DNA of 24,690 nt from a virus, in the IMG/VR virus record IMGVR_UViG_3300021956_000076, positions 1 through 24,690 of that record; one strand, written 5' to 3'. The first letter of the stretch is position 1. The number at the start of each line of letters is the position of its first letter. Below, in pieces: positions 2 to 21,787 of the stretch. Both the position numbers and the translations under genes were made by a program. A model generated the notes under the pieces. That model saw nothing but the letters and a program-made list of their open reading frames with translations, was not told the DNA's origin and searched no databases.

Positions 2-613
2 TTCATCCTTCAGTCCTACGACTGCGCTTTCACCGAGAAGACGACCGGCGACCCGACCGCATGCACGGTCTGGGGCATCTTCACCCATGAGGGCGAGCGC
101 AACGCCATGCTCATCGACGCATGGGACGAGCATCTGTCCTACCCGGAGCTGCGCGCCCGCGTCATCAAGGACTGGGCGACCGAGTACGGCGGCATGACCA
201 AGGACTCGCCCTACAGCCGGGCTCGGCGGGCCGACCGGATGCTGGTCGAGGCCAAGGCCAGCGGCCAGAGCCTGCTTCAGGACATGCGCCTCGCCCGCGT
301 CCCGGTCATTGGCTACAATCCGGGCAAGGCCGACAAGATCAGCCGAGCCCATCAGGCGGCTCCCACGCTTGAGCTGGGATTGCTCTGGATACCAGAGTCG
401 ACTAAGAATAAGGGACATCCGGTGAGCTGGGCCGGAACCTTTCTTCGGCAACTGTCGAAGTTCCCGGTCGCGGAGCATGATGACTATGTGGACACCTTCA
501 CGCAGGCGGTCATCTACCTCAAGAATGAAAAGTGGTTCGATCTGCCGCAAGCCCGCGAGATCGACGAGCGCCGCCCGGCCAAGCGCAAGCATGTCAATCC
601 CTATGCAGTGTGA
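2..613 (+). CDS. Terminase large subunit, C-terminal nuclease part (5' truncated)
   Basis: The reading frame is open from base 2, so this is the last 203 residues of a gene that starts before the window. It matches the RNase H-like nuclease half of phage large terminases, which cuts concatemeric DNA during packaging at the portal. The stretch QSYDCAFTEK at residues 4-13 carries the first acidic metal ligand position (D7), and the late HDDYVDTFTQA stretch (about residues 159-169) carries the final acidic cluster typical of the family. The ATPase half lies outside the window. The first internal ATG at 107 is not the start, because conserved sequence precedes it. The portal gene two places downstream supports the call. 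Confidence 0.88.
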   Translation, partial: FILQSYDCAFTEKTTGDPTACTVWGIFTHEGERNAMLIDAWDEHLSYPELRARVIKDWATEYGGMTKDSPYSRARRADRMLVEAKASGQSLLQDMRLARVPVIGYNPGKADKISRAHQAAPTLELGLLWIPESTKNKGHPVSWAGTFLRQLSKFPVAEHDDYVDTFTQAVIYLKNEKWFDLPQAREIDERRPAKRKHVNPYAV

Positions 614-621
614 GTGCTATC

Positions 622-3600
622 ATGGCTGATCGTCCCTTCAATCTAGGCATTGACCCGGCTGACGTTCAGGCGCGGCTCCAGCAGCTATTGCAGCCCGGCT
701 ACGCTCGCGGTGGGCTCAGGGAAGCCATCGCAGAGATGGAAGGCCCCGAAGCGCAGGGGGCAAGCAGCCCCAGTTTTGAAGGCATGGGCGAGGCCCTGAG
801 CGGCATCGGCGCTGGCATCAGCGACATCTACAGCACTCCCGAGGCTGACCTGTCGGCGTACATGCAAGCGCCAGAAGCTTCCGTGCGCCGTGACATCACG
901 CCTGCGATGCTTGGCGCTGCTCTCAACCCCGAAGCGCAAGGCGCATCGAGCCCGAGCCTTGAGGGCGTCGGCGAGGTGCTGCACTCGATGGGCGAAGATC
1001 CTGCTGCGCTGATCGGTGGCATGCTGCCGGGGATTGGCAATGCGCTTGCTGCCGCCGATGTCGCCAAGCTCAAAGACAAGATTGAGGTTCTGCGCGCTGC
1101 TGGCGCAGTCGAAGAGGCCAGCAAGCTCCAGCGCTTCCTGCCGCTCGCTGCTGCCGGTGTCGTCATGCCGTTTGGCGGCGGTGCTGCTGCCCGTGGCGCT
1201 GTGAAGGCGTCTGAGAAGGCTGCGGTGCGCGAACTGTCACCGCTCGGCTTCTACAGCCACGGCGCTGAGACGGCGCTTGGCCTGCCGCAAGCAAAGGGAA
1301 CGCCGGAGCAATTTGCTGCGATGCTTCAGAAGTATGGCGTGAAGCCTGCCGAGATGGAGGGCTTTGGTGAAGCGTTCGCTGGTCGCCCCAGCGTGACCCG
1401 CGAGGAGATTGCTGCGCACTTTAGGGAGAGGATGCCGCAGGTTGAAGAGACGGTGTTGGGTGCGCCTAATAAAGATTTGCAAAAAGCTTGGGAAAAAATT
1501 GATCGTCTTTCAAATGAACTATACGATCTTGGAATTACAGAGCATACGCCTATTGCTAGAGGAACATATAACCCAGATTTCTATCCTGCTGAATATCAAG
1601 GCACAATTAAAGAACTTGCTGATGCGCACAAATATGTGCGTGATCAAGAAAGCCTTGGCAGAACTATGGCGGCCAACCCCACCAAATTCGGCCAATACAC
1701 CCTCCCCGGCGGCGAGAACTACCGCGAGGTGTTGTTGAAGCTGCCTGAAAAAAGCTTTGGCCGCGATGACCCTAGAGTCATGCAAGAAGCTTTGATGGCG
1801 TACAATGAAAAAGATATTCCAAGGCTTACAGATGGCCAGTGGAAAATGCTTCAAGCGCGCGCCGCCCGCAGAAATGGTGAAGCGTTAGAACAGCCGTTCC
1901 AGTCTTCCCACTGGGACGATCCCAACGTCCTCGCGCATCTTCGCATGGCTGACCGCACCGGCCCGAACGGTGAGAAGATCTTGCATGTTGAGGAAATCCA
2001 GTCCGACTGGGGGCAGAAGGGGAAGAAGGAGGGGTTTGTTACAAAATACAAACCCGAAGACATAAAAGAAATTGATCCAGCTAATATTACTAGCGAACGC
2101 AGGCGTAATGAGTTTTGGAATTTTGAAACGCCAACTGGGGCTATAGATGTTCCGAGGAATAGCCGTTGGCCAACGATGGAAGCTGCAAGGCAGCATATTC
2201 TTGATAATAAGAAGCCAACCGGTATTCCAACCGCCCCCTACGTCACCAACACGCAGGCATGGACCGACCTCGCCCTCAAGCGCGCTCTGCGTGAGGCGGC
2301 TGAAGGCGGCTATGACAAGCTCGTCTGGACGCCGGGTGTCGAGCAGGCGAAACGGTATGATTTGAGTAAGCAGATTAGCCGAATCGGTTATCAACCTGAA
2401 ACAGGAATGCTCTACGCTGTTGATACGAATGGCGTTCGTGTGCCGCAGTTGGCCAATAAATCGTACAAGCCTGAAGAACTTCCCGGCGTCATAGGCAAGG
2501 AAGCGGCTGAAAAGCTTCTTTCTACTGAACAGGACCGACTTGGCTATCACCTTCTTGTAGGCAACGACTTGTCTATGGGCGGCGAAGGCATGAAGGGCTA
2601 CTACGACAAGATCGTGCCGAACCAGTTGAGCAAGCTGGTGAAGAAGCTTGATCCCGAGGCGAAGATTGGGCGCGAAACTCTTAGTACAAGTCCGATCACG
2701 CCAGAGCAATTGATGGATCAAAGGACAATCCCTGACCGCAATCAGGTCGATTTTCATTCCCTCACCATCACCCCCAAGATGCGCGAGGCGATCTTGAGCG
2801 GCCAGACAGCGTTTGCTGAAGGCGGCTCCGTCCAAAACTCCGGCGCAACCGAGGCGGCGGATCTTGATACGCTCTACCAGAAGTACGCCGACCCCGGCTA
2901 TGCGTTTGGCGGAATGTTCAATGATTTGTTTGAAGGCACAAAAAACATACGCAAAAAATGGTTTGACAACCCATATGCAACTCCAGCTTTTACAGATTCC
3001 CAAGCCACACAGGATGAGCAACCCGCAACAAATGAAGATAAAGGACTGACCCAGCTTGCAGCCAATTACGGCGAAGGCGCTGGTGGTCAGGCTGAGACAA
3101 TTCCTTCCACTGTTGGAAGCGAAACGGAACAGCCGTATCTTGGCGGCAACCTCATCATGACTGAAGAGGAAAACAAGCAATATGATGATCTGATCAATTC
3201 GCAGCAGGGTGAGCCGCCATCGTTTGGCCCTGACAACATCCCGCTCCCAACGAGAAAACCAACATATTTGCAGAGCTTCGACTACAGCCAGTATGCCAAT
3301 CCGCTTGCGGCTCGGTACGCCTTTTTGTCAAAGGCGTTGAACCCAACGATTGCCGCTGCTGCTATGGGCAACTTCCAAGTTGAGAGTGGCAACAACCCAA
3401 ACCAGCTTCAGACTTCAAGCGGGGCATTAACGGGCAAGCCACTTTATACAAAAGAGAAAGGCTTTGAAAACCTTCCGACCGGATATGGATCTGCGCAATG
3501 GGGAACCACGAGGCTCACGAATTTAGGGGCTAACGACCCCAACAAGCTGGGGCTCTATGACTTCGCCGACCGTTACGGGCTCGACCCAAATACGACCGAA

Positions 3601-4674
3601 GGTCAGGACAGGTTTCTCGTTTACGAACTGACGACAAACCCTGAGTATCGCAACGTCTACAAAAACCTGTTGAAGTCAGGAAACAATGTTGCTGGCGCAA
3701 CCTACATTTTTGGAAGCGGGTATGAAGCGCCAAAGAATCTCAGCGCAAGCCTCAAGCAGCGCCAACAAGATGCGCTGATGTACCAGAATCTTTACACCAA
3801 TGGTCTGGACAAATTGACTGACGCCCAGCGTCAGCGAATTGCAGACACGCAAAAGAATATCTTGGACCCGTACTTCAACAAGTTGGCCGAGGATAAGGCT
3901 GCGCTTGAAAAAGAGCAGTATAATAAATGGTTTGAAGATCAGAAGTCCGCTTTCTTCAAGCGCACTGACGAAATAAACGCCAAGGCGGAAGCCGATGCGA
4001 AGGCCAAGGCTGACGCCGAGGCGGCAGAAAGGGCTCGCGTTCAGGATCAAGTTGCTCAAAACAACAACGATCTTGGCGACGTGGGGTTCAATCCTGTCGT
4101 CGATACATCGGTCAATGATCGTATCATGGCAGACTCCAATGCCTTGCTTGACCAGTCGGTTCAGAGCGGACTGAACTACAACTATCAAGACCCATTTGGT
4201 CTTCTTTCAAGCGGCTTGTCGCAATATGTGCTGCCGGAAACTTACAGCAGTAGCGGAAGGCCCGGCGGCGGAAATGATGGAACTGGAACCCAGCTGTCTA
4301 TTTCTCCAGATTTTCCAAGTTGGTACACGGAGCCATTTGCCGAAGGCGGAAGCGTTGGCTTCAAGCCCATGTTTGATGGCGACAGCGAGATGCTTCAGGC
4401 CCGCGCCAAGCAGTTGGCGAGGCAGGCTTACGAAAATCCGAAGAGCCTTTCGGCCAACGAGCGCAAGGAATGGAATGAGCTTGCGGGCAAATATAACCTT
4501 CCTCCGTCAGCCGGAAGTCAAAATACATATGAAGAACAGACAGAAGAAACGATGAGCGGCTTGCAAAAAGGTTTAAGTTCGCGTCAAAAAGAGAGAGAAT
4601 ATGCAAAGGGTGGGCTCGTCTATGATCCTGCTGAAATTGATGCGATTGCCGCTCAAATCCGTGGAGCCATCTAA
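622..4674 (+). CDS. Large multi-domain virion or polyvalent protein with lysozyme-like domain
   Basis: A 1350-residue protein. I start it at ATG 622, 9 bases after the terminase stop; the open frame continues upstream into terminase sequence and has no better start. Domains in order: an Ala/Gly-rich head with a duplicated PEAQGASSPS motif (about residues 43-52 and 104-113); a module at about 205-730 with the blocks GTPEQFAAMLQKYGVKPAE, GGENYREVLLKLP, HVEEIQSDWGQKGKKEGF, RYDLSKQ and GGEGMKGYYDKIVP, which I recognise from large polyvalent proteins of phages and prophages; a lysozyme-like domain at about 885-1060 with MGNFQVESG (likely catalytic E921) and GSAQWG; and an Ala/Glu/Lys coiled coil at about 1089-1148. 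Five GG motifs (Y27, F731, Y760, F1239, Y1327) sit at domain borders. Likely role (inference): a virion protein ejected or used to breach the wall. The function of the 205-730 module is unknown to me. Confidence 0.75.
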   Translation: MADRPFNLGIDPADVQARLQQLLQPGYARGGLREAIAEMEGPEAQGASSPSFEGMGEALSGIGAGISDIYSTPEADLSAYMQAPEASVRRDITPAMLGAALNPEAQGASSPSLEGVGEVLHSMGEDPAALIGGMLPGIGNALAAADVAKLKDKIEVLRAAGAVEEASKLQRFLPLAAAGVVMPFGGGAAARGAVKASEKAAVRELSPLGFYSHGAETALGLPQAKGTPEQFAAMLQKYGVKPAEMEGFGEAFAGRPSVTREEIAAHFRERMPQVEETVLGAPNKDLQKAWEKIDRLSNELYDLGITEHTPIARGTYNPDFYPAEYQGTIKELADAHKYVRDQESLGRTMAANPTKFGQYTLPGGENYREVLLKLPEKSFGRDDPRVMQEALMAYNEKDIPRLTDGQWKMLQARAARRNGEALEQPFQSSHWDDPNVLAHLRMADRTGPNGEKILHVEEIQSDWGQKGKKEGFVTKYKPEDIKEIDPANITSERRRNEFWNFETPTGAIDVPRNSRWPTMEAARQHILDNKKPTGIPTAPYVTNTQAWTDLALKRALREAAEGGYDKLVWTPGVEQAKRYDLSKQISRIGYQPETGMLYAVDTNGVRVPQLANKSYKPEELPGVIGKEAAEKLLSTEQDRLGYHLLVGNDLSMGGEGMKGYYDKIVPNQLSKLVKKLDPEAKIGRETLSTSPITPEQLMDQRTIPDRNQVDFHSLTITPKMREAILSGQTAFAEGGSVQNSGATEAADLDTLYQKYADPGYAFGGMFNDLFEGTKNIRKKWFDNPYATPAFTDSQATQDEQPATNEDKGLTQLAANYGEGAGGQAETIPSTVGSETEQPYLGGNLIMTEEENKQYDDLINSQQGEPPSFGPDNIPLPTRKPTYLQSFDYSQYANPLAARYAFLSKALNPTIAAAAMGNFQVESGNNPNQLQTSSGALTGKPLYTKEKGFENLPTGYGSAQWGTTRLTNLGANDPNKLGLYDFADRYGLDPNTTEGQDRFLVYELTTNPEYRNVYKNLLKSGNNVAGATYIFGSGYEAPKNLSASLKQRQQDALMYQNLYTNGLDKLTDAQRQRIADTQKNILDPYFNKLAEDKAALEKEQYNKWFEDQKSAFFKRTDEINAKAEADAKAKADAEAAERARVQDQVAQNNNDLGDVGFNPVVDTSVNDRIMADSNALLDQSVQSGLNYNYQDPFGLLSSGLSQYVLPETYSSSGRPGGGNDGTGTQLSISPDFPSWYTEPFAEGGSVGFKPMFDGDSEMLQARAKQLARQAYENPKSLSANERKEWNELAGKYNLPPSAGSQNTYEEQTEETMSGLQKGLSSRQKEREYAKGGLVYDPAEIDAIAAQIRGAI

Positions 4675-7292
4675 TGCCTGAGACCATGAACGAAGACGAC
4701 GATCTTCCGCAGGGCGATGTTGTACGCCTTGAAGATGAGTTCAATGAGGTTGAGGACACGCCCGATGGCGGCGCAATCATTCACCTCGACAATGAGGTGG
4801 ACGAGAAGGTTCACCTTGAGCATTTCGCCAACATTGTTGACGAGGTTGACCCAACCATGTTGCGGGAAGCCGTCAGCGATCTCATGGACAAGATCGAAAA
4901 AGACAAGGAGGCTCGCGAAAAGCGTGACAAGCAGTACGAAGAGGGCCTGCGCCGCACTGGTTTGGGTGACGATGCCCCCGGTGGCGCACAGTTTCAGGGC
5001 GCAAACAAGGTTGTTCATCCATTGCTGGTGGAATCATGCGTAGATTTCTCTGCGCGCTTCATGAAAGAAGTGTTCCCGCCTAGTGGACCTGTGAAAAGCA
5101 AGGTGCTTGGCGTTCAGGACAACGAGAAGATCGCCAAGGGTCGCCGCAAGGCCGACTTTATGAACTGGCAAACGACTGAGCAGATGGTTGAGTTCCGTGG
5201 TGAACTGGAACAGCTCAGCACCCAGCTTCCGCTTGGCGGTGGCCAGTACATGAAGTTCATGTGGAACGCTCAGTGGAAGCGTCCCATGTCCGAGTTCATC
5301 CCGATTGACGATGTGTATTTGCCGTTTGCCGCCACCAACTTCTACTCGGCTGAGCGCAAAACGCATGTTCAGTACGTCACCGAGATGGAATATAACCGTC
5401 GCGTCAAATCTGGAATGTATCGTGACGTTGATGTTGGGGCTCCAGATGACCCTGATTTCAGCCAAAGCACCAAGGCAAACGATAAAATTGAAGGCAGAAC
5501 CGACACTTCGTATAACGAAGACGGTTTACGCACCATTTTTGAGATTTATACGCATCTCGACTTTGGCAATGGCGTAGAACCGTACATTATCAGCATCGAC
5601 AAAAGCAGCCGCAAAGCTCTCAATCTCTATCGAAATTGGGAACCTGACGATGAAATGCGCAAAGAACTGGAGTGGATCGTCGAGTTCCCCTTCATTCCTT
5701 GGCGCGGCGCTTATCCAATTGGCCTGACGCATATGATTGGTGGCCTTTCCGGGGCCGCTACAGGCGCTTTGCGCGCTTTGTTGGACTCTGCGCACATCCA
5801 GAACATTCCGACGCTTCTGAAGCTCAAGGGAGGCCCCGGCGGCCAATCTCTGAACATCCAGCCCACTGAGGTCATCGAGATCGAGGGCAGCGGGATGGTC
5901 GATGATGTGCGGAAAATCGCCATGCCGGTGCCGTTCAACGGCCCAAGCCCGGTTCTTTTCCAGCTTCTCGGTTTCTTGGTCGATGCCGGAAAGGGCGTTG
6001 TTCAGACAACCTTTGAAAAACTGTCGGATCAGAACCCAAATCAGCCGGTCGGCACCACAATGGCGCTGATTGAGCAAGGAATGGTGGTTTTCAGCTCCAT
6101 TCACTCGCGTTTGCATGGGTCAATGGCCCGGTGCTTCAAGATTTTGCACCGCATCAACTCGGCATATCTGACTATTGAAGACATTGAGGCGCAGGCTTCG
6201 GGTCTTGAAATTGATCCATCTGATTTTGACGGGCCGTTGGACGTAATTCCGGTCAGCGATCCCGCCATTTTCAGCGACACCCAGCGTTTTGCCCAGACGC
6301 AGGCCATCATGCAGCGCGCTCAGGCGATGCCGCAGATGTACGACGCCCGAAAGGTCGAAGAACGCTTCCTTCGCGACATGAAGGTGCCGGAAAACGAGGT
6401 CTTGCAGCCAAAACCGGGCAGCGAAGACATGGACCCGGTGTCGGAGAACGTCGCCGCAACGATGGGAAGGCCAATCTTTGTGATCCCAAAACAGGATCAC
6501 ATGGCGCATATCATGACGCACATGGCGTTTTTGAAGTCACCGCTGTTTGGGGCGAACCCGGTCATCACTCAGACGTTTCTTTACCCGATGGCTATTCATC
6601 TACGAGACCACTTGCTCAACTATTATTTGGTTGAGGCCCATAATGCGGTCGATATGGCGCATCGCGAGAATCTGATTCAACAGGAAGCGTCTGAACAGGT
6701 GAAAGTCATCCTTCAGGTGCAACAGTTCATCGAACAGCAGCTTGGTCAGTTTGGTCAGGAGCTTGCGCAGATCAGCCAGCAGGCCCAGCAGTTTGCTCCG
6801 CAGCCTCCAATGCCGCCTGACAACAGCATGCAGATTGCGCAGCTCAATGCCCAGATACAGGGTCAGGCGCTTCAGCAGCGCGCTCAATCTGATCAGGCGC
6901 GCATGCAGATCGAACAGGCCAAGATGCAGCAGGACGCGGCCATCAAACAGGCCGAGATTGCCGCTCGCGGCCAGCAGTCGGCGCAGGACGTTGCCATCAA
7001 GCAGGCTCAGTTGGCCAACGACGACAAGCGGTCTCAGCTTGAATTGGCGCGTGAGCAAATGCGCCAGCAGACCGAGGCTCAGATGCGCGAGAAACAGCAG
7101 CAACTGGAGCTTGCCCGCGAGCAGATGCGCCAGAGCGGCGACGACCAGCGTACCGCAGCGGACCTCACTGTCCGCGAGCGCATGAACACTGCCGACAACA
7201 GAACCGCAATGGATCTGGCTCAGCTTGAAATTGCGACCGGGGAAAAGTTCTCGGTTACGACAGGAACGGGCGTCAATCCCGGCGCACGGTGA
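4674..7292 (+). CDS. Portal protein
   Basis: An 872-residue protein whose ATG shares a base with the preceding stop (TAATG), implying coupled translation. The position between terminase and scaffold/capsid and the length fit the large portal proteins of podovirus-like phages, the dodecameric ring through which DNA enters and leaves the head. The N-terminus (about residues 1-75) is acidic; the stretch around GANKVVHPLLVESCVDFSA (about 107-125) resembles the start of the portal core in related aquatic phages. From about residue 670 to 850 the protein becomes Gln/Ala/Met-rich and coiled-coil-like, with LELAREQMRQ present twice (near bases 7036 and 7102). Such tails are known as the barrel or crown region of large portals. 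Identification rests on context and remembered family resemblance; confidence is good for portal, low for subfamily. Confidence 0.8.
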   Translation: MPETMNEDDDLPQGDVVRLEDEFNEVEDTPDGGAIIHLDNEVDEKVHLEHFANIVDEVDPTMLREAVSDLMDKIEKDKEAREKRDKQYEEGLRRTGLGDDAPGGAQFQGANKVVHPLLVESCVDFSARFMKEVFPPSGPVKSKVLGVQDNEKIAKGRRKADFMNWQTTEQMVEFRGELEQLSTQLPLGGGQYMKFMWNAQWKRPMSEFIPIDDVYLPFAATNFYSAERKTHVQYVTEMEYNRRVKSGMYRDVDVGAPDDPDFSQSTKANDKIEGRTDTSYNEDGLRTIFEIYTHLDFGNGVEPYIISIDKSSRKALNLYRNWEPDDEMRKELEWIVEFPFIPWRGAYPIGLTHMIGGLSGAATGALRALLDSAHIQNIPTLLKLKGGPGGQSLNIQPTEVIEIEGSGMVDDVRKIAMPVPFNGPSPVLFQLLGFLVDAGKGVVQTTFEKLSDQNPNQPVGTTMALIEQGMVVFSSIHSRLHGSMARCFKILHRINSAYLTIEDIEAQASGLEIDPSDFDGPLDVIPVSDPAIFSDTQRFAQTQAIMQRAQAMPQMYDARKVEERFLRDMKVPENEVLQPKPGSEDMDPVSENVAATMGRPIFVIPKQDHMAHIMTHMAFLKSPLFGANPVITQTFLYPMAIHLRDHLLNYYLVEAHNAVDMAHRENLIQQEASEQVKVILQVQQFIEQQLGQFGQELAQISQQAQQFAPQPPMPPDNSMQIAQLNAQIQGQALQQRAQSDQARMQIEQAKMQQDAAIKQAEIAARGQQSAQDVAIKQAQLANDDKRSQLELAREQMRQQTEAQMREKQQQLELAREQMRQSGDDQRTAADLTVRERMNTADNRTAMDLAQLEIATGEKFSVTTGTGVNPGAR

Positions 7293-7451: not shown

Positions 7452-7645
7452 ACTTTGAAACCCTACTTCTGAATCGTCTCAAGGCTGCTCAGCAAGAAGT
7501 GGCTCTTGAAGCCTTGAGACGACCACAGACACGAGACGCATTCGAGTACGGGTGTCGCGTGGGCATCATAGAAGGCTATGAGGCCGCAATAAATGTACTC
7601 TTAAACCTGATCAACGAGGAAAAGTATGGAGATAAAGACCTCTGA
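7448..7645 (+). CDS. Small conserved phage protein of unknown function (65 aa)
   Basis: A 65-residue protein starting at the ATG of an ATGA overlap (7448-7451) with the preceding gene; it overlaps the GroES-like gene by 20 bases. The sequence is amphipathic and probably all-helical, with an N-terminal NFETLLLNRLKAAQ, a central ALRRPQTRDAFEYGCRVGII and a C-terminal helix ending in Glu/Lys. Small proteins of this pattern (a helix, an LRRP-like turn, then YG..xGI) are common beside portal genes in uncultured aquatic phages, from memory. No function can be assigned; it may be a minor head component or head-assembly factor. Confidence 0.65.
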   Translation: MNFETLLLNRLKAAQQEVALEALRRPQTRDAFEYGCRVGIIEGYEAAINVLLNLINEEKYGDKDL

Positions 7646-8039
7646 GAACGCATTGGCGGAAGCTTTTCCAGCAGTAGATGCTGGCATCCGGCCTTTCGGT
7701 AGCCGCGTTCTGGTCCAGATTCGGACACCCCGTAAAATATCCAAGGGCGGCATCATAATTGACCTTGGTACGCAAGAAACTGAAAAGTGGAACACTCAGG
7801 TCGCCAAGGTGATCTCTGTTGGTCCGCTGGCATTCAAGAACCGGACAACTATGGAGCCGTGGCCGGAAGGCGCTTGGTGCAAGCCCGGTGATTTCGTTCG
7901 TGTCGCCAAATATGGCGGCGACCGTTGGGAAATCGCGTATGGCGACATTGGCGAGAAAGCCATGTTCGTGATCTTCAATGATCTGGACATCATTGGCGAC
8001 GTAACCGGCGATCCTCTTGCTGTGAAAGCATTCATCTGA
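7626..8039 (+). CDS. GroES-like co-chaperonin (Cpn10 family)
   Basis: A 137-residue protein with a GAGG ribosome site just before ATG 7626, inside the end of the preceding gene. After an N-terminal extension of about 20 residues it shows the Cpn10 pattern: RPFGSRVLVQ at the first strand, KISKGGIII in the place of the mobile loop that contacts GroEL, VAKVISVGP, then GDFVRVAKYGG and a closing FNDLDIIG. Cpn10 proteins cap the GroEL cage; phage versions (T4 gp31 is the precedent) help fold the major capsid protein. No GroEL is in the window, so the host chaperonin is the likely partner. Its place between portal and scaffold in the head operon fits that role. The extended N-terminus and C-terminal tail make it longer than the usual ~95 residues. 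Confidence 0.85.
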   Translation: MEIKTSENALAEAFPAVDAGIRPFGSRVLVQIRTPRKISKGGIIIDLGTQETEKWNTQVAKVISVGPLAFKNRTTMEPWPEGAWCKPGDFVRVAKYGGDRWEIAYGDIGEKAMFVIFNDLDIIGDVTGDPLAVKAFI

Positions 8040-12106: not shown

Positions 12107-13411
12107 ATGACGGTTGGTAAAGTCAGCAACTTCAATTTTTCCTCAGCCGGTAAAACGGTTGGTCGTTGCAATGATAGCATGACCAAAATGGCCAGCGGTG
12201 GGTATTACTCCAAAGGCGGCATCAAGGAAGCCGAGACTGGCGAAATGTATCCCAGCCGTCGCGCTATGATGAAGCATGAGTCGATGGAAACGCCGCGCAT
12301 GCAGCGCGATGAGGTCATGCAGAGCCGCACCGTGAAAGCCCCTCCTGCCGTGATGGCTGCCGCCCGTCAGATGCCACCGGCCAAGGCTCCAATGCGCCGC
12401 CAGATGCCTGTTGCTCCCAATGCGCCAATGATTCAGGCTGGCGCTATGAAGAAGGGCGGCTTCGTCAAGGGCGGCTCCGGCATGGTCAAGACGGAAGGCA
12501 CCCTTGGCATTAAGGGAAACAAAAATCCCGGCGAGCGTAATGGCAAACCTACGACCGCCACAAAAACGGGGAATGTCCGCTTCAAGAAGGGCGGCGAAGT
12601 CAACTGTTATGCTGACGGCGGTCCTGCTGCTCCAATCGAGGCGCAAAAAACTGGCGCACTGAACCAGATGGCTGCGCAGCAGAGGCTTACGCCCAGCCAG
12701 ATAGCTCGTCAGCAGGCTATGGCGGCTCAGGCGGCTGGACAGCCGTTGTCGCAGGCGCAGCAGCAAGCAAATTTGCAGAGCGCAATGACTGCTTCGCAGC
12801 AGCCGGGGTATAACCCCAATATGCAGCAGCAGAATTTGAGCGGCGTTCCGCTCGGTCAGCTTGGTCAACAGCTCACACCAAGCCAGATTGCCCGGCAGCA
12901 AGCTATGGCGGCTCAAGCGGCTGGACAACCTTTTTCGCAAGCTCAGCAGCAGGCAAACTTGCAGCAGGCGATGACAAATTCGCAAATGATGCAGAAGCAA
13001 TCGCAGTTGGACGCTCAAGCACTGGCGGGTAGGCAGACCATGCTTGCCGGTAGCCAGCTCATGCTTCCGGGTGTAGGCGCTCCTATGCAAATAACACCTC
13101 AGATGCAGCAGCAGATGATGGCACAGTATGAAGCCGTTCGTGCTGGCCAAGGAATGCCCGGTGGATTGCAGCAAGCTCCCCAGCAGGGGCTTGGTCAGGC
13201 ATTTGGTGGCCCGCAGCCAATGCCAACCCAGCAGGGCATGCAGCAGCAATATAACCCGTTCCAACAGGGTCAGTCTGGCCAAATGGGTCAGGCGTTGCCT
13301 CAGCAGGGTACGCCTCAGCAGGCCCGGATGGGTATAGGTCTGGGTCAGGCGCTGCCTCAGCAGAGCATGCAGCAGCCCCCGATGCGCATGGGCATGGGGA
13401 AATTTTCATGA
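12107..13411 (+). CDS. Gln/Met-rich low-complexity protein with Lys-Gly-Gly motifs
   Basis: A 434-residue protein with AAAGGAG before ATG 12107. Residues 1-185 are basic and Met-rich, with repeated Gly pairs: MASGGYYSKGGIK, KKGGFVKGGSG and KKGGEVNCYADGG. Residues ~185-434 are dominated by Gln, Ala, Met, Pro and Gly and contain a 37-residue unit twice (LTPSQIARQQAMAAQAAGQP start). No catalytic motif is visible. The di-glycine motifs echo those of the large protein at 622-4674, hinting that both belong to the same compartment of the particle. An internal head or connector-associated protein is an inference. It ends in an ATGA overlap with the next gene. Confidence 0.65.
   Translation: MTVGKVSNFNFSSAGKTVGRCNDSMTKMASGGYYSKGGIKEAETGEMYPSRRAMMKHESMETPRMQRDEVMQSRTVKAPPAVMAAARQMPPAKAPMRRQMPVAPNAPMIQAGAMKKGGFVKGGSGMVKTEGTLGIKGNKNPGERNGKPTTATKTGNVRFKKGGEVNCYADGGPAAPIEAQKTGALNQMAAQQRLTPSQIARQQAMAAQAAGQPLSQAQQQANLQSAMTASQQPGYNPNMQQQNLSGVPLGQLGQQLTPSQIARQQAMAAQAAGQPFSQAQQQANLQQAMTNSQMMQKQSQLDAQALAGRQTMLAGSQLMLPGVGAPMQITPQMQQQMMAQYEAVRAGQGMPGGLQQAPQQGLGQAFGGPQPMPTQQGMQQQYNPFQQGQSGQMGQALPQQGTPQQARMGIGLGQALPQQSMQQPPMRMGMGKFS
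12686..12796 (+). repeat. Direct repeat, copy 1, in the Gln-rich gene
   Basis: Encodes a 37-residue unit beginning LTPSQIARQQAMAAQ. Its partner at 12872-12982 keeps the protein sequence closely, while many third codon positions differ, so the duplication is not recent. The offset is exactly 186 bases (62 residues). Confidence 0.85.
12872..12982 (+). repeat. Direct repeat, copy 2, in the Gln-rich gene
   Basis: Second copy of the unit at 12686-12796. Protein changes include L to F after GQP and S to Q before AMT. Selection on the protein appears to have kept the unit. Confidence 0.85.
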
Positions 13412-14733: not shown

Positions 14734-16777
<2,044 letters not shown>

Positions 16778-17010: not shown

Positions 17011-20000
17011 ATGGCAGATCGTTATTTTGTTCCGGGCGGCACCAATAGCTTCAGTTTGACTTCTAATTGGTCGGCTAGCCCTACGCTCACACCAACTGGT
17101 GCATCAGTGCCGGGCAGTGGCGACAATGCTTTTTTTACATCTGCCACTACGTACACTGTCATTAGTGCATCAGGACCAACCGTTTTTGATTTCAATGTGT
17201 CCGCTGGAACTGTGACGTTTAATCTTACTGGCTCAACTACCATATTGGGTTCTTTCAATGTCTCAACGCCTATAAGTTGGTCAGGTTCCAATATAACCAT
17301 TCAGGCCAACTCAGCCACAACGCGAACTATTCGATGCGGCGGATCAACGATTGAAGCAAACGTCACTGTGGCGGATGGTGGGTTTGGGAATACATATCAA
17401 TTGGTTGACAACTTTGTATGCGGGACATCGCGTACATTCACCTATAGCGGTGGCGGCACTCTTGATCTAAATGGATTCACGTTAACCTGTGGGCTGTTCA
17501 ACAGCTCAAACTCAACAACGAGAACCATAGCATTTGGGACAAGCAAAATAATATGCACCGGCTCTGGGAATGTATGGAATTTGGCTACTATTACCGGGCT
17601 GACTATTACCGGCACTCCGCAAGTTGACCTTACTTATAGTGGTCTTACCAATATAACTATTTCTTTAGGCGCATTGCCAGAAGCAAGTAGCGTATCATTT
17701 GCAATCAAAGCTGGAGGCTATGGTCTTTCGTTTGGCGGCACTACTGTTAAAAATCTAGATTTTACAGGATTTGCGGGAAGTGTCACGAGTGCGGCCCTTA
17801 CAATCTATGGAAACGTAACTCTAAGCACTTCTGCAATGTCATGGAGTACAACAGGAACGCAAACATTTGCGGCAACTTCAGGCACTCAGTTAATTACATC
17901 AAATGGAAGAACATTTGATACATCGATAAACATTAACAGCGTTGGAGTAACTGTAAAACTTGCCGATGCTATGACTACAGGTTCATCCAGAACCTTGACC
18001 CTTACCACAGGAACTTTTGATCTTAACAATCAGACAGCAACTGTAGGGTTTTTCAATGCTAACAACTCTAATACCCGCACAATCGCATTCGGAACTGGAA
18101 ATTTTTCGCTTAGTGCAGCGGGCGGCACACCGTGGAATACCAGCACCATAACAGGTCTTACCGTAACAGGAACTCCTGTTGTCAATTACCCATATACTGG
18201 CGCTACTTTAACAGTGATAAGTCCCGGTACTTTATCTGAGGCAAATTCTATTTCGTTTAATTTTACTGGAGGAACCTACGCTCTCACGTTGACGGCTGGA
18301 CATTCGTTCAGAAGTCTAAATTTTGTGAATAGCGGAACAACAGGATACGGCGGGGCACTTGGAACTGTCGCAACTGATCGAAACATTTATGGCAGCATAA
18401 CTTTTTCCAGCAATATGACGATGGGAACATCCACTCTGGGTTTTGTCTTTAAGGCAACATCTGGAACGCAAACATTGACCATGAACGGGATAACGCTGGC
18501 GCAGCAAACTGCGATCAACAATCCCGGCGCAACCCTTTTTCTTGCTGATGCAGTAACGATAGTCTCTACTCGATCCTTTGGATTGATTAATGGTAGCATT
18601 GACGGAAACAACAAGACAATCAGCGGCGGCACATTTGTGCAAATGCTGACTGGTTCCGTAACTATGAAAAATTTGTCCACCGCTATGACATTCACGCATT
18701 CCAGCGGCACCCTCACTCAAATTGGAAATAATACGACTGGACCGTATACCTTAACTGCTGGAACGCTTGATCTTGGAAGCTATCAGTTAAATTGCACGAC
18801 ATTCGATTCCAACAACGTAAATACCAGAACGCTCGCATTTGGAACTGGCAACATCACTTGCACTGCAACAAGCGGAACTGTATGGACAACTGCAACTGTA
18901 ACTGCATTGACCATTACGGGAACACCTGTTGTTAATGTGACAAGTTCTGGCCTGTCGGCCATAACTGTTGCCGCAGGCGTATTGACGGAAGCGCAGTCAA
19001 TATCATTCAATTTCACTGGCGGAACATATACACTAACTTATAGTGGTAGCGGAAATAATATGAATTTTACAAGTTTCGGTGGCGCGTTCCTTCTTGGCGC
19101 AGCTAGTACAATTTATGGGAATTGGACCATCCCTACTGGTTCAACAATGACGACAAGCGCATCTGCGGTTCTTTGCACATTTGGCGCTACTTCAGGAACC
19201 AAAACCATCAAGACAAGTGGGGTTGCGCTCAATTTTCCCGTCACCTTCAATGGTGCTGGCGGAACTTGGCAGTTGCAAGATAACCTGACGGTCGGCTCTT
19301 CAACCACCGTTTCGACCAGAACAACATCGCATACGCAAGGAACACTTGATCTCAACAATTTTCAATTAATATCGGGCTTGTGGAATGGTGGTTCAGGGCT
19401 CACAAGAACATTAGCTTTTGGAACATCTGGCTCTGTAAAAGTTATTGGAAGTGGTTCAATAATTCAAAATAATTTATGCACTACGGCAGCTGCTTTTAGT
19501 TATACCGGAACATCTTTGTTTTACATTTCAAACAATAGCGCAACTGCGTCAACTATAGCTGTTGGGGCACCAACAGAAGCTGTAAGCATGAATTATTTGG
19601 TAGATGTTGGAACTTACGCAATAACAATGTTTAGTGGTGGCTCTGCCGTAAAAAATTTAGATTTTACCGGTTTTAGCGGCACTTTTTCAGGTGCATGGAA
19701 TGCTTTATCCGTGTATGGCAATTTGACTTTCTCTGCAACTGCTGGCGCTCCTGCTGCCTCCGGTAACTTGGTGACATTTAGGGCGACATCTGGAACGCAG
19801 CTTTTTACATCTAACGGAAAAACACTTGATTTCCCCATAACAGTAAATGGGGTTGGCGGTACAGTTAAACTTGCCGATGCGTTGACGATGGGAGCCACTC
19901 GCGCACTAACCCTCACCAATGGTACATTCGACGGCAATAGCAAAACCATCTCTGGTGCATCATCTTTCACGATGGTGACGGGTTCTGTCACCGCTAAAAA

Positions 20001-20700
20001 CATCAGCACTGCGCTGGCATTTACTCATACTAGTGGGACGTTGACGCAAGGCGCGAACAACTCAATCGGAGCCTACACCATAACCGCAGGAACGCTTGAT
20101 CTTGCGGGTTTCACTTTCACAACCACATCATTCGTTACTGCGGTTGGAACTAAAAACCTGACATTCAATGGCGGCACATTAACGGTCACTGACGCGACGA
20201 CCACTGCTTTCAATAATGCCCAGCCAACTGGATTTACGACAACAGCAGGAACAGGGACCGGCAAAATCAGTATGACTGCCGCTACTGCCAAGACGTTTGT
20301 TGGCGGCGGTTCAACTTTCAACTGCACTCTATCCAATGACGGTGCTGGCGCGTTGACGATCAGCGGTAGCAACACCTTCACCACTATCGCCAATGGCGTT
20401 CAACCAACAGCGTTCACCTTTACGTCAAGCACAACTCAGACTGTCACCAACTGGACTGTCAGCGGCATCGCAGGCAATCTGGTGACAATCACAAGTACGG
20501 TGGCTGGCACGGCAGCAACGCTGTCAAAGGCATCAGGCACGGTATCTTCTGACTACCTCAGCTTGAAGGACAGTGCTGCAACCGGTGGTGCGACTTGGTA
20601 TGCAGGCGCAAACTCAACCAATGTCAGTGGCAACTCTGGGTGGATATTTACTGCGCCTCCGGTTATCACTGCTGGCGGCAACTTCTTCTTCATGTTCTGA
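17011..20700 (+). CDS. Giant Ser/Thr/Gly-rich repeat protein, probable virion adhesin
   Basis: A 1229-residue protein with TAGGAG before ATG 17011. Residues 1-148 form an N-terminal domain beginning ADRYFVPGGTNSFSLTSNW, with ASVPGSGDNAFF, a pattern I recall at the start of large phage surface proteins. Residues 149-1026 are a two-level repeat: units of about 185-194 residues starting GT(L/F)DL, arranged U-U-B then U-U-B, where B is 56 residues. Residues 1027-1229 hold a C-terminal module (TVTNWTVSGIAGNLVTI, LSKASGTVSSDYLSLKDSA, GATWYAGANSTNVSGNSGW). Almost no charged residues and strong alternation suggest stacked beta-helix or beta-solenoid. The DNA is visibly more AT-rich than the head genes. 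Host binding is inferred from context next to fibres and a glycosyltransferase. Confidence 0.75.
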   Translation: MADRYFVPGGTNSFSLTSNWSASPTLTPTGASVPGSGDNAFFTSATTYTVISASGPTVFDFNVSAGTVTFNLTGSTTILGSFNVSTPISWSGSNITIQANSATTRTIRCGGSTIEANVTVADGGFGNTYQLVDNFVCGTSRTFTYSGGGTLDLNGFTLTCGLFNSSNSTTRTIAFGTSKIICTGSGNVWNLATITGLTITGTPQVDLTYSGLTNITISLGALPEASSVSFAIKAGGYGLSFGGTTVKNLDFTGFAGSVTSAALTIYGNVTLSTSAMSWSTTGTQTFAATSGTQLITSNGRTFDTSININSVGVTVKLADAMTTGSSRTLTLTTGTFDLNNQTATVGFFNANNSNTRTIAFGTGNFSLSAAGGTPWNTSTITGLTVTGTPVVNYPYTGATLTVISPGTLSEANSISFNFTGGTYALTLTAGHSFRSLNFVNSGTTGYGGALGTVATDRNIYGSITFSSNMTMGTSTLGFVFKATSGTQTLTMNGITLAQQTAINNPGATLFLADAVTIVSTRSFGLINGSIDGNNKTISGGTFVQMLTGSVTMKNLSTAMTFTHSSGTLTQIGNNTTGPYTLTAGTLDLGSYQLNCTTFDSNNVNTRTLAFGTGNITCTATSGTVWTTATVTALTITGTPVVNVTSSGLSAITVAAGVLTEAQSISFNFTGGTYTLTYSGSGNNMNFTSFGGAFLLGAASTIYGNWTIPTGSTMTTSASAVLCTFGATSGTKTIKTSGVALNFPVTFNGAGGTWQLQDNLTVGSSTTVSTRTTSHTQGTLDLNNFQLISGLWNGGSGLTRTLAFGTSGSVKVIGSGSIIQNNLCTTAAAFSYTGTSLFYISNNSATASTIAVGAPTEAVSMNYLVDVGTYAITMFSGGSAVKNLDFTGFSGTFSGAWNALSVYGNLTFSATAGAPAASGNLVTFRATSGTQLFTSNGKTLDFPITVNGVGGTVKLADALTMGATRALTLTNGTFDGNSKTISGASSFTMVTGSVTAKNISTALAFTHTSGTLTQGANNSIGAYTITAGTLDLAGFTFTTTSFVTAVGTKNLTFNGGTLTVTDATTTAFNNAQPTGFTTTAGTGTGKISMTAATAKTFVGGGSTFNCTLSNDGAGALTISGSNTFTTIANGVQPTAFTFTSSTTQTVTNWTVSGIAGNLVTITSTVAGTAATLSKASGTVSSDYLSLKDSAATGGATWYAGANSTNVSGNSGWIFTAPPVITAGGNFFFMF
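17455..18759 (+). repeat. Higher-order repeat, copy 1 (U1-U2-B)
   Basis: U1 starts at 17455, U2 at 18010 and B at 18592. U units are marked by a start like GTLDL, then TRTIAFGT, LTITGTP or LTVTGTP, and ATSGTQ; B contains DGNNKTISG and TGSVTMKNLSTAMTFTH. Confidence 0.85.
18760..20088 (+). repeat. Higher-order repeat, copy 2 (U3-U4-B')
   Basis: U3 starts at 18760, U4 at 19339 and B' at 19921, and a final GTLDL begins at 20089. U2, B and U3 starts lie exactly 1329 bases (443 residues) before U4, B' and the final GTLDL, showing an in-register duplication. Confidence 0.85.
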
Positions 20701-20707
20701 GGGAAAA

Positions 20708-21787
20708 ATGAAAATAGCCGTTTACGCAATCAGCAAAAATGAATCTAAGCTTGTGGAGCGTTTTTGCACTTCTGCAAAAGACGCAGATATTATCCTTATC
20801 GCAGACACCGGGAGCGATGATGATACCGCAGAAGTGGCACGGGGATGTGGCGCGGTTGTTCACCATATTAGCGTTGTCCCTTGGCGTTTTGATACTGCTC
20901 GCAACGCTGCTCTTTCCCTTGTTCCTAGCAATGTGGATGTCTGCATCAGCCTAGACATAGACGAGATTCTTCAGCCGGGATGGCGCAATGAAATTGAGCG
21001 TCTTTGGGTTGACGGAGCCACTCGTCTTGATTTTCTGTTCGACTGCGGGAACGGCATCGTGTTCAGACCACGGCGCATTCACGCTCGGCATGGTTATCGG
21101 TGGCAATACCCTTGCCATGAGCTTTTGGTTCCAGACAACAGATACCCGGAAAAGCCCGTTAGCACGGACATGGTGCTGATACGCCACGACCAAGATCCAA
21201 CCAAGCCTCGCGGACAGTATCTCGACATGCTTGAGCAGGCGGCCAAGGAAGATCCAAGCTGCCCTCGCAGCGCGTTCTACTACGCCCGCGAGCTAAGCTA
21301 CCGCCAACGGTGGGCAGACTGCATATTAGCCTTTCAGCGGTACTTGCATATTCCTGCTGACCTGTGGTGGCACGAAAAAGCGTTCGCCTATCGTGTCATG
21401 GGCAATGCCCACAGCAAGCTTGGCAATCCATATGACGCCGAAAGAAATTTTCATCTGGCGGCTGCTGAAGCCCCCGGCACCCGTGAGCCTTGGTGCAATC
21501 TAGCCATGCTTATGTACACTCAGAACCGATGGGAAGAGTGTTTCGCCTACTCCATGCGGGCGCTGCGGATCACAGAGCCGGATCATGTCCATACGTCAGA
21601 CCCCAACGTGTGGGGTGCGTGGCCTCACGACTTAGCCAGTCTGGCTGCTTGGCACCTCAAACTGCCTGAAATTTGCATCGAACAAGCTCGATTGGCGGTA
21701 GAAAAAGACCCCAATGACGAACGCCTGAAGAAAAATTTGGACTTCGTGACAACCGATCCTGAATCGGTTAAACTTGCCGCAGAATAG
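20708..21787 (+). CDS. Family 2-like glycosyltransferase with C-terminal TPR-like repeats
   Basis: A 359-residue protein; ATG 20708 follows GAGGG and precedes the first conserved strand, so in-frame starts further upstream within the adhesin gene are rejected. The GT-A fold is clear: KIAVYAISKNES at the N-terminus, the nucleotide-sugar motif DTGSDDDT (residues 33-40), WRFDTARNAAL (59-69), and the metal-binding SLDIDE with D83-x-D85-E86. After about residue 185 come helical pairs of TPR type (RSAFYYARELSYRQRWADC, KAFAYRVMGNAHSKLGN, CNLAMLMYTQNRWEEC). It starts 7 bases after the adhesin stop. It may glycosylate fibres of this phage or host surface sugars; the substrate cannot be read from sequence. 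Confidence 0.85.
   Translation: MKIAVYAISKNESKLVERFCTSAKDADIILIADTGSDDDTAEVARGCGAVVHHISVVPWRFDTARNAALSLVPSNVDVCISLDIDEILQPGWRNEIERLWVDGATRLDFLFDCGNGIVFRPRRIHARHGYRWQYPCHELLVPDNRYPEKPVSTDMVLIRHDQDPTKPRGQYLDMLEQAAKEDPSCPRSAFYYARELSYRQRWADCILAFQRYLHIPADLWWHEKAFAYRVMGNAHSKLGNPYDAERNFHLAAAEAPGTREPWCNLAMLMYTQNRWEECFAYSMRALRITEPDHVHTSDPNVWGAWPHDLASLAAWHLKLPEICIEQARLAVEKDPNDERLKKNLDFVTTDPESVKLAAE

Follow-up and report, generated by a model that had tools for sequence, protein, structure and literature searches.

The window analyzed here is a 24,690-bp IMG/VR virus record (IMGVR_UViG_3300021956_000076), probably a fragment, in which an open reading frame (ORF) for a 1350-residue protein, P0001, lies between the genes for the terminase large subunit and the portal protein (Table 1). 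This placement, proposed in a preliminary description made from the sequence alone, is borne out by the ORF reading and by the terminase and portal matches. The ATG of the portal gene overlaps the P0001 stop codon by one base. The possibility that P0001 is a fusion created by assembly was rejected, since other contigs (relatives L002, L014, L026, and L019) carry a gene of the same type at the same terminase-portal locus. Across the lineage, the polyvalent gene occupies either the terminase-portal gap or the site immediately downstream of the portal gene. The P0001 gene is built of cassettes, and its blocks are gained and lost where a short motif, [FY][AK]xGGxV, occurs. The cassette structure, the repeated motif (a putative tag), and a tentative acyltransferase-like fold go beyond the preliminary description.

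Domains of P0001

In the C-terminal half, a profile search identified PF18013, the domain of phage tail lysozymes (residues 899-1056; E value 1.7e-18; 67.6 bits, with a curated Pfam cut-off of 28.2), in agreement with the earlier proposal of a lysozyme-like domain with a candidate Glu at 921. Specifically, E921 is invariant in an alignment of seven diverse sequences that includes tail lysins and lysozymes of Bacillus, Staphylococcus, Caulobacter, and Synechococcus phages and sequences of two gut phages; equally invariant are G916, N917, S922, P926, G956, Q959, W960, R964, and E1002. The ratio of nonsynonymous to synonymous substitution rates (dN/dS) of the block, calculated against two close relatives, is 0.07-0.09. 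A phmmer search of the block against the PDB gave no meaningful match, and the family assignment therefore rests on Pfam and the alignment, which indicate that the lysozyme domain is real. The muramidase domain of PrgK, whose glutamate has been called catalytically important, is homologous to phi29 gp13, and its closest structural neighbors are phage tail lysozymes (PMC11323569). P0001 resembles the PF18013 family in its domain-level match and in the conserved region of the catalytic Glu, but its copy lies inside a portal-adjacent polyvalent protein and not in a tail protein. The lysozyme block was not found in the plasmid search.

C-terminal to the lysozyme domain, a helical Ala/Lys/Glu-rich region (residues ~1072-1184) gives weak matches to coiled-coil profiles (TolA-like, E value 0.003), the only matches in an NCBIfam scan of P0001. 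For the coiled coil that had been described here, the helical Ala/Lys/Glu-rich stretch is present and the coiled-coil profile support is weak. The small C-terminal domain (residues 1244-1326) occurs also in L019, which is without a P0001-type lysozyme.

N-terminal to the lysozyme domain lies a long module for which the preliminary description had noted conserved blocks at residues ~205-730, and these blocks form a conserved and coherent unit. An alignment of 33 homologues covers residues 200-745 and has 43 invariant columns, and dN/dS is 0.20-0.27. The structure prediction yielded a coherent fold, with a mean predicted local distance difference test score (pLDDT) of 78 and a predicted template modeling score (pTM) of 0.71 for one AlphaFold model and a pLDDT of 85 for a second. 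In 108 non-redundant sequences, residues Y367, E369, H439, R441, R445, E458, Q460, S461, D462, W463, Q465, T544, W547, G572, R578, Y579, G656, M657, and Y661 are 94-100% conserved, the figures for QSDWGQ and GMKGYYD being biased upward by the use of these strings as search patterns. At the aligned module end, G727 and G734 are present in 94-97% of sequences; a looser module-end pattern (77/146) was not used as evidence. The conservation pattern looks like that of an enzyme.

No Pfam or NCBIfam model matches the module, and a search of PDB sequences with its profile returned one match, at chance level. Among PHROGs, the module is matched by 7348 (3e-12), which is a giant protein annotated as endolysin. 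Homologues occur in at least 591 IMG/VR stretches, in bacterial genomes from many phyla (40 loci), and in a ~5000-residue polyvalent protein of Pseudomonas plasmids. The family is widespread and strongly conserved and has no Pfam model; it possibly corresponds to an LPD domain that Iyer et al. (2017) named and for which Pfam has no model. In the Pseudomonas aeruginosa plasmid p382 (L048), the ~5000-residue polyvalent ORF carries LPD23 and seven ART-PolyVal stretches besides the module. One polyvalent protein (L034, 2605-9501) apparently has two module copies, with the GGEGMK block and the motif each occurring twice.

P0001 therefore combines two disparate domains, a lysozyme and a conserved enzyme-like module. 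The PF18013 match and the conserved, coherently folding module uphold the earlier proposal that a wall-opening domain is paired with an uncharacterized activity. Its relatives place it in a polyvalent setting, as had been proposed: among 34 module-bearing ORFs, the Pfam partners include ART-PolyVal (10), InPase (3), LPD23 (2), PBECR5 (2), and Hydrolase_2 (2). Wall-degrading domains of unrelated folds recur in or next to polyvalent genes, namely Hydrolase_2 (L017 and L029), a weak SLT match (L030), and, in MW202675, a Peptidase M15 beside an ART domain, adjacent to the portal gene. A neighboring gene of MW202675 (L005, 5770-7989) encodes another cassette protein, in the order GNAT, tag, Peptidase M15, tag, ART-PolyVal.

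These fusions and recurring wall-degrading domains fit the polyvalent proteins of Iyer et al. (2017), described there as large proteins with many domains that are encoded by phages and mobile elements and are thought to be injected (PMC5512222), and the sequence evidence assigns P0001 to this known class. Shared with the proteins covered there are the virion-gene neighborhood, the joining of lysozyme-type and host-modifying domains, and the same partner domains; P0001 differs in having a module that matches no Pfam model and in that no metallopeptidase was found in it. The main text of PMC5512222 makes no mention of a glycine motif or an inter-block linker.

Table 1. Features of the locus, with positions in the window and, where applicable, residues of P0001
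Feature	Position	Strand	Basis
Terminase large subunit, C-terminal part	2..613	+	phrog_38 2.6e-23; Pfam Terminase_6C 6.9e-8
P0001, predicted polyvalent, cassette-built protein, 1350 residues	622..4674	+	ORF translation; start kept in relative L002
Motif (putative tag) copy 1, YARGG, residues 27-31	700..714	+	Left join of module absence in L002
Module, residues 200-730, no Pfam match	1219..2811	+	33-sequence alignment; AlphaFold model; missing from L002
Module conserved core, residues 354-676, blocks NYRE, HLR, EEIQSDWGQ, WTDLALKR, GMKGYYD	1681..2649	+	108 non-redundant sequences; Foldseek; GNAT-like topology proposed
Motif copy 2, FAEGG, residues 731-735, immediately past module	2812..2826	+	Right join of L002 absence
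Motif copy 3, YAFGG, residues 760-764	2899..2913	+	Left join where the lysozyme cassette is absent (L014 and L026)
PF18013 (phage tail lysozyme) domain, residues 899-1056	3316..3789	+	Pfam match and alignment
Candidate catalytic Glu921	3382..3384	+	Invariant in seven-sequence alignment
Ala/Lys/Glu-rich helical stretch, probable coiled coil, residues 1089-1145	3886..4056	+	Weak TolA/EzrA/EnvC profile matches
Motif copy 4, FAEGG, residues 1239-1243	4336..4350	+	Motif scan
Small C-terminal domain, residues 1244-1326	4351..4599	+	Also present in L019
Motif copy 5, YAKGG, residues 1327-1331, then C-terminal tail LVYDPAEIDAIAAQIRGAI	4600..4614	+	Right join of lysozyme-cassette absence in L014
Portal protein	4674..7292	+	phrog_1216 1.5e-10
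Gly/Lys-rich then Gln/Pro-rich protein, 434 residues, five loose motif copies	12107..13411	+	Motif scan

Cassettes and the [FY][AK]xGGxV motif

Relatives with the same terminase-X-portal locus reveal the cassettes directly. In particular, L002 keeps the lysozyme block and is missing the module (P0001 residues ~32-724), while L014 and L026 keep the module and are missing the lysozyme block (about residues 765-1324, or part of them), and L046, at its end, jumps in the same way from residue 758 to residue 1309 in P0001 numbering. In all four, the joins fall at or beside motif copies.

The motif was picked after the window protein had been viewed, and the relatives share ancestry, so that the following counts, compared with shuffled sequences, are not independent: [FY]AxGG occurs 5 times in P0001 (0.08 expected) and 62 times in module-bearing relatives (2.6 expected). 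A slightly wider motif occurs 96 times in module-bearing or polyvalent ORFs (6.3 expected) and 39 times in a Gly/Lys-rich family (1.7 expected), but once in the portal, terminase, major capsid protein, GroES, scaffold-like, and g199-type genes (~2.4 expected). In the models, the copies fall in low-confidence stretches where folded domains end; along the proteins, they occur close to either terminus and between blocks. Within 24 residues, a copy follows the end of ART in 13 of 18 cases and the end of N[ED]RMxESI in 8 of 8, with a background of 2.9%. F/Y, A/K, and GG are retained although their codons vary freely among synonyms, which indicates that the constraint acts on the peptide.

The distribution follows the phage lineage. 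At loci with a window-type portal, 72 of 77 module ORFs carry the motif (193 copies; 13.3 expected), whereas 37 bacterial-genome contigs that carry the same module without such a portal show little excess (16 copies; 11.5 expected). Viral loci without a detected portal (22 loci) are mixed (35 copies; 4.8 expected), and several of them look like fragments from the same lineage because the same terminase gene or Gly/Lys-rich gene is present. The notion of the motif as a trait of polyvalent proteins generally was dropped, as the bacterial and plasmid copies are without clear excess. A genome-wide survey of five near-complete relatives and MW202675 (391 ORFs, in pieces) placed the motif mainly in polyvalent genes, in the Gly/Lys-rich gene, and in a large gene matching DNA-ejection or virion-structural families (phrog_4287, 6121, and 342 among the DNA-ejection and internal-virion families); in MW202675 the product of this large gene is an internal virion protein that includes an endolysin domain. 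The few remaining hits fall mostly in glycine-rich genes. The motif was not found in the portal, capsid, or terminase proteins of these six genomes. In the sequences compared, the motif is restricted to this phage lineage, where it is borne chiefly by predicted cargo and ejection proteins, and the link to such proteins that the preliminary description had drawn for P0001 is supported by the shared motif. In many relatives, the Gly/Lys-rich family is encoded downstream of the polyvalent gene, and its member in the window could be a partner of tagged cargo or itself cargo. A lineage-wide cargo mark of this kind was absent from the passages of PMC5512222 searched and from literature searches that excluded most subscription literature.

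Proposed role of P0001 and alternatives

We favor, at somewhat better than even confidence, the reading that P0001 is an ejected polyvalent virion protein in which the lysozyme opens the wall, the module is likely a GNAT-type effector, and the cassettes bear a packaging or docking tag. P0001 would be made late alongside the portal protein, packed in the head with other internal proteins, and ejected together with the DNA. The lysozyme block, with its candidate catalytic Glu921, would open peptidoglycan locally, and the 200-730 module would be delivered into the cell and act on a host target, most likely as a divergent GNAT-fold acyltransferase. The motif would most likely be a short tag, for docking or packaging, through which the cassette protein is brought to the head during assembly.

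The proposed role resembles that of T7 gp16, an ejected protein with a wall-opening domain. The likeness drawn earlier holds at the level of function and not of sequence: P0001 has a different lytic domain and no match to gp16 or to the ejection families (phrog_342, 4287, and 6121), and MW202675 has a separate gp16-type protein besides its polyvalent genes. Short head-import signals have precedents in the T4 internal-protein capsid targeting signal of ~10 residues (PMC9958956) and in the P1 DarB packaging signal, which lies within the first 30 residues and for which BLAST gave no consensus among Dar proteins (PMC9024508). Motif copy 1 occupies a position comparable to that of the DarB signal, but the putative tag of the P0001 lineage differs from both precedents in being a recurrent consensus repeated at many domain ends.

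Whether the module has a GNAT-type fold is, on the models, an even call. The top PDB matches of both module models (Foldseek) are mostly GNAT acetyltransferases and the acetyl-CoA-binding protein ICL2, and a GNAT topology can be mapped onto residues 365-601 (beta2, 365-373; beta3, 436-446; beta4, 452-460; alpha3, 544-561; beta5, 566-569; alpha4, 572-578; beta6-7, 582-601). The module differs from GNAT acyltransferases, which some polyvalent proteins also contain, in its large inserts and additional conserved GMKGYYD block. No Acetyltransf_1 or other GNAT profile matched in the window, and none is among the Pfam matches of P0001 at E values up to 10.

Several points weigh against the favored reading. 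The Foldseek search with the two models gave no significant match to PDB structures, the best acetyltransferase E values being 0.065 and 0.14, with none below 0.05. A profile-profile test (hhalign) of the module against 23 GNATs gave p = 0.035, compared with 0.042 for a control, in a register that fits alpha3-beta5 and is not significant. The post hoc choice of motif and the shared ancestry of the relatives mean that the motif counts express association and give no probability, and a few glycine-rich, probably tail-type genes of the relatives show motif-like strings. Finally, that P0001 is packaged and ejected, that its two blocks are active as proposed, and that the motif acts as a tag are inferences, and the presence of P0001 in the virion is a prediction.

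The motif could instead be a cleavage site, at which a protease, either self-encoded or one of head maturation, would cut behind GG and free each block as a separate ejected protein. The positions of the copies at domain ends, near termini, and between blocks would suit cleavage, and metallopeptidase processing of polyvalent proteins has been proposed (PMC5512222). However, nine relatives (53-71 kb) yielded no Peptidase S78, ClpP-type, or S49 gene, Pfam matched no metallopeptidase domain in P0001, and cutting would shred the Gly/Lys-rich protein, in which the motif is repeated. Because no common prohead protease was found in these nine relatives and the Gly/Lys-rich protein is full of the motif, a packaging or docking tag is likelier than a cleavage site, which we regard as rather doubtful. 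That every cassette join lies at or beside a motif copy, and that linkers are favored crossover points, would also be expected if the motif were a flexible linker or a recombination scar that spread along with the cassettes and has no signal function. This explanation is unlikely in view of the retention of F/Y, A/K, and GG among varying synonymous codons, the lack of excess where this module occurs in bacterial and plasmid contigs, and the motif on predicted ejection proteins.

It is also conceivable, although quite improbable, that P0001 is not a virion protein and has a late function inside the producing cell, such as that of an accessory lysin or an assembly factor. Phage tail lysozyme domains are known in endolysin-like proteins (Fontainebleau, with an adjoining holin), but the terminase-portal position, the motif common to P0001 and the predicted DNA-ejection protein, and the recurrent fusion to host-modifying domains argue for a protein that travels with the virion.

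A broader form of the favored reading, in which the motif is a modular packaging code repeated at the ends of imported enzyme blocks and the module represents a new family of injected acyltransferases, is possible, and we put it forward tentatively. If true, the tag would make a domain cargo of the head of this lineage and so leave the phage free to exchange effectors. How phage proteins are chosen for loading and injection is known for few systems, and the motif makes the question directly testable. Its occurrence on predicted ejected proteins, without excess on the same domain elsewhere, would help to find injected effectors in metagenomes.

Other genes of the window

The interval between the portal and capsid genes contains a phage-encoded GroES-like co-chaperonin (7626-8039), which is kept in relatives. 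Farther downstream are a collagen-like protein with GPTGPTG repeats (15029-16777), probably a tail or surface fibre, and a repetitive Ser/Thr/Gly-rich protein of 1229 residues (17011-20700) that has no family match and is a probable beta-rich fibre. Also among the structural genes, an ORF (20573-21787) encodes a fusion of TPR repeats with a domain that resembles glycosyltransferase family 2.

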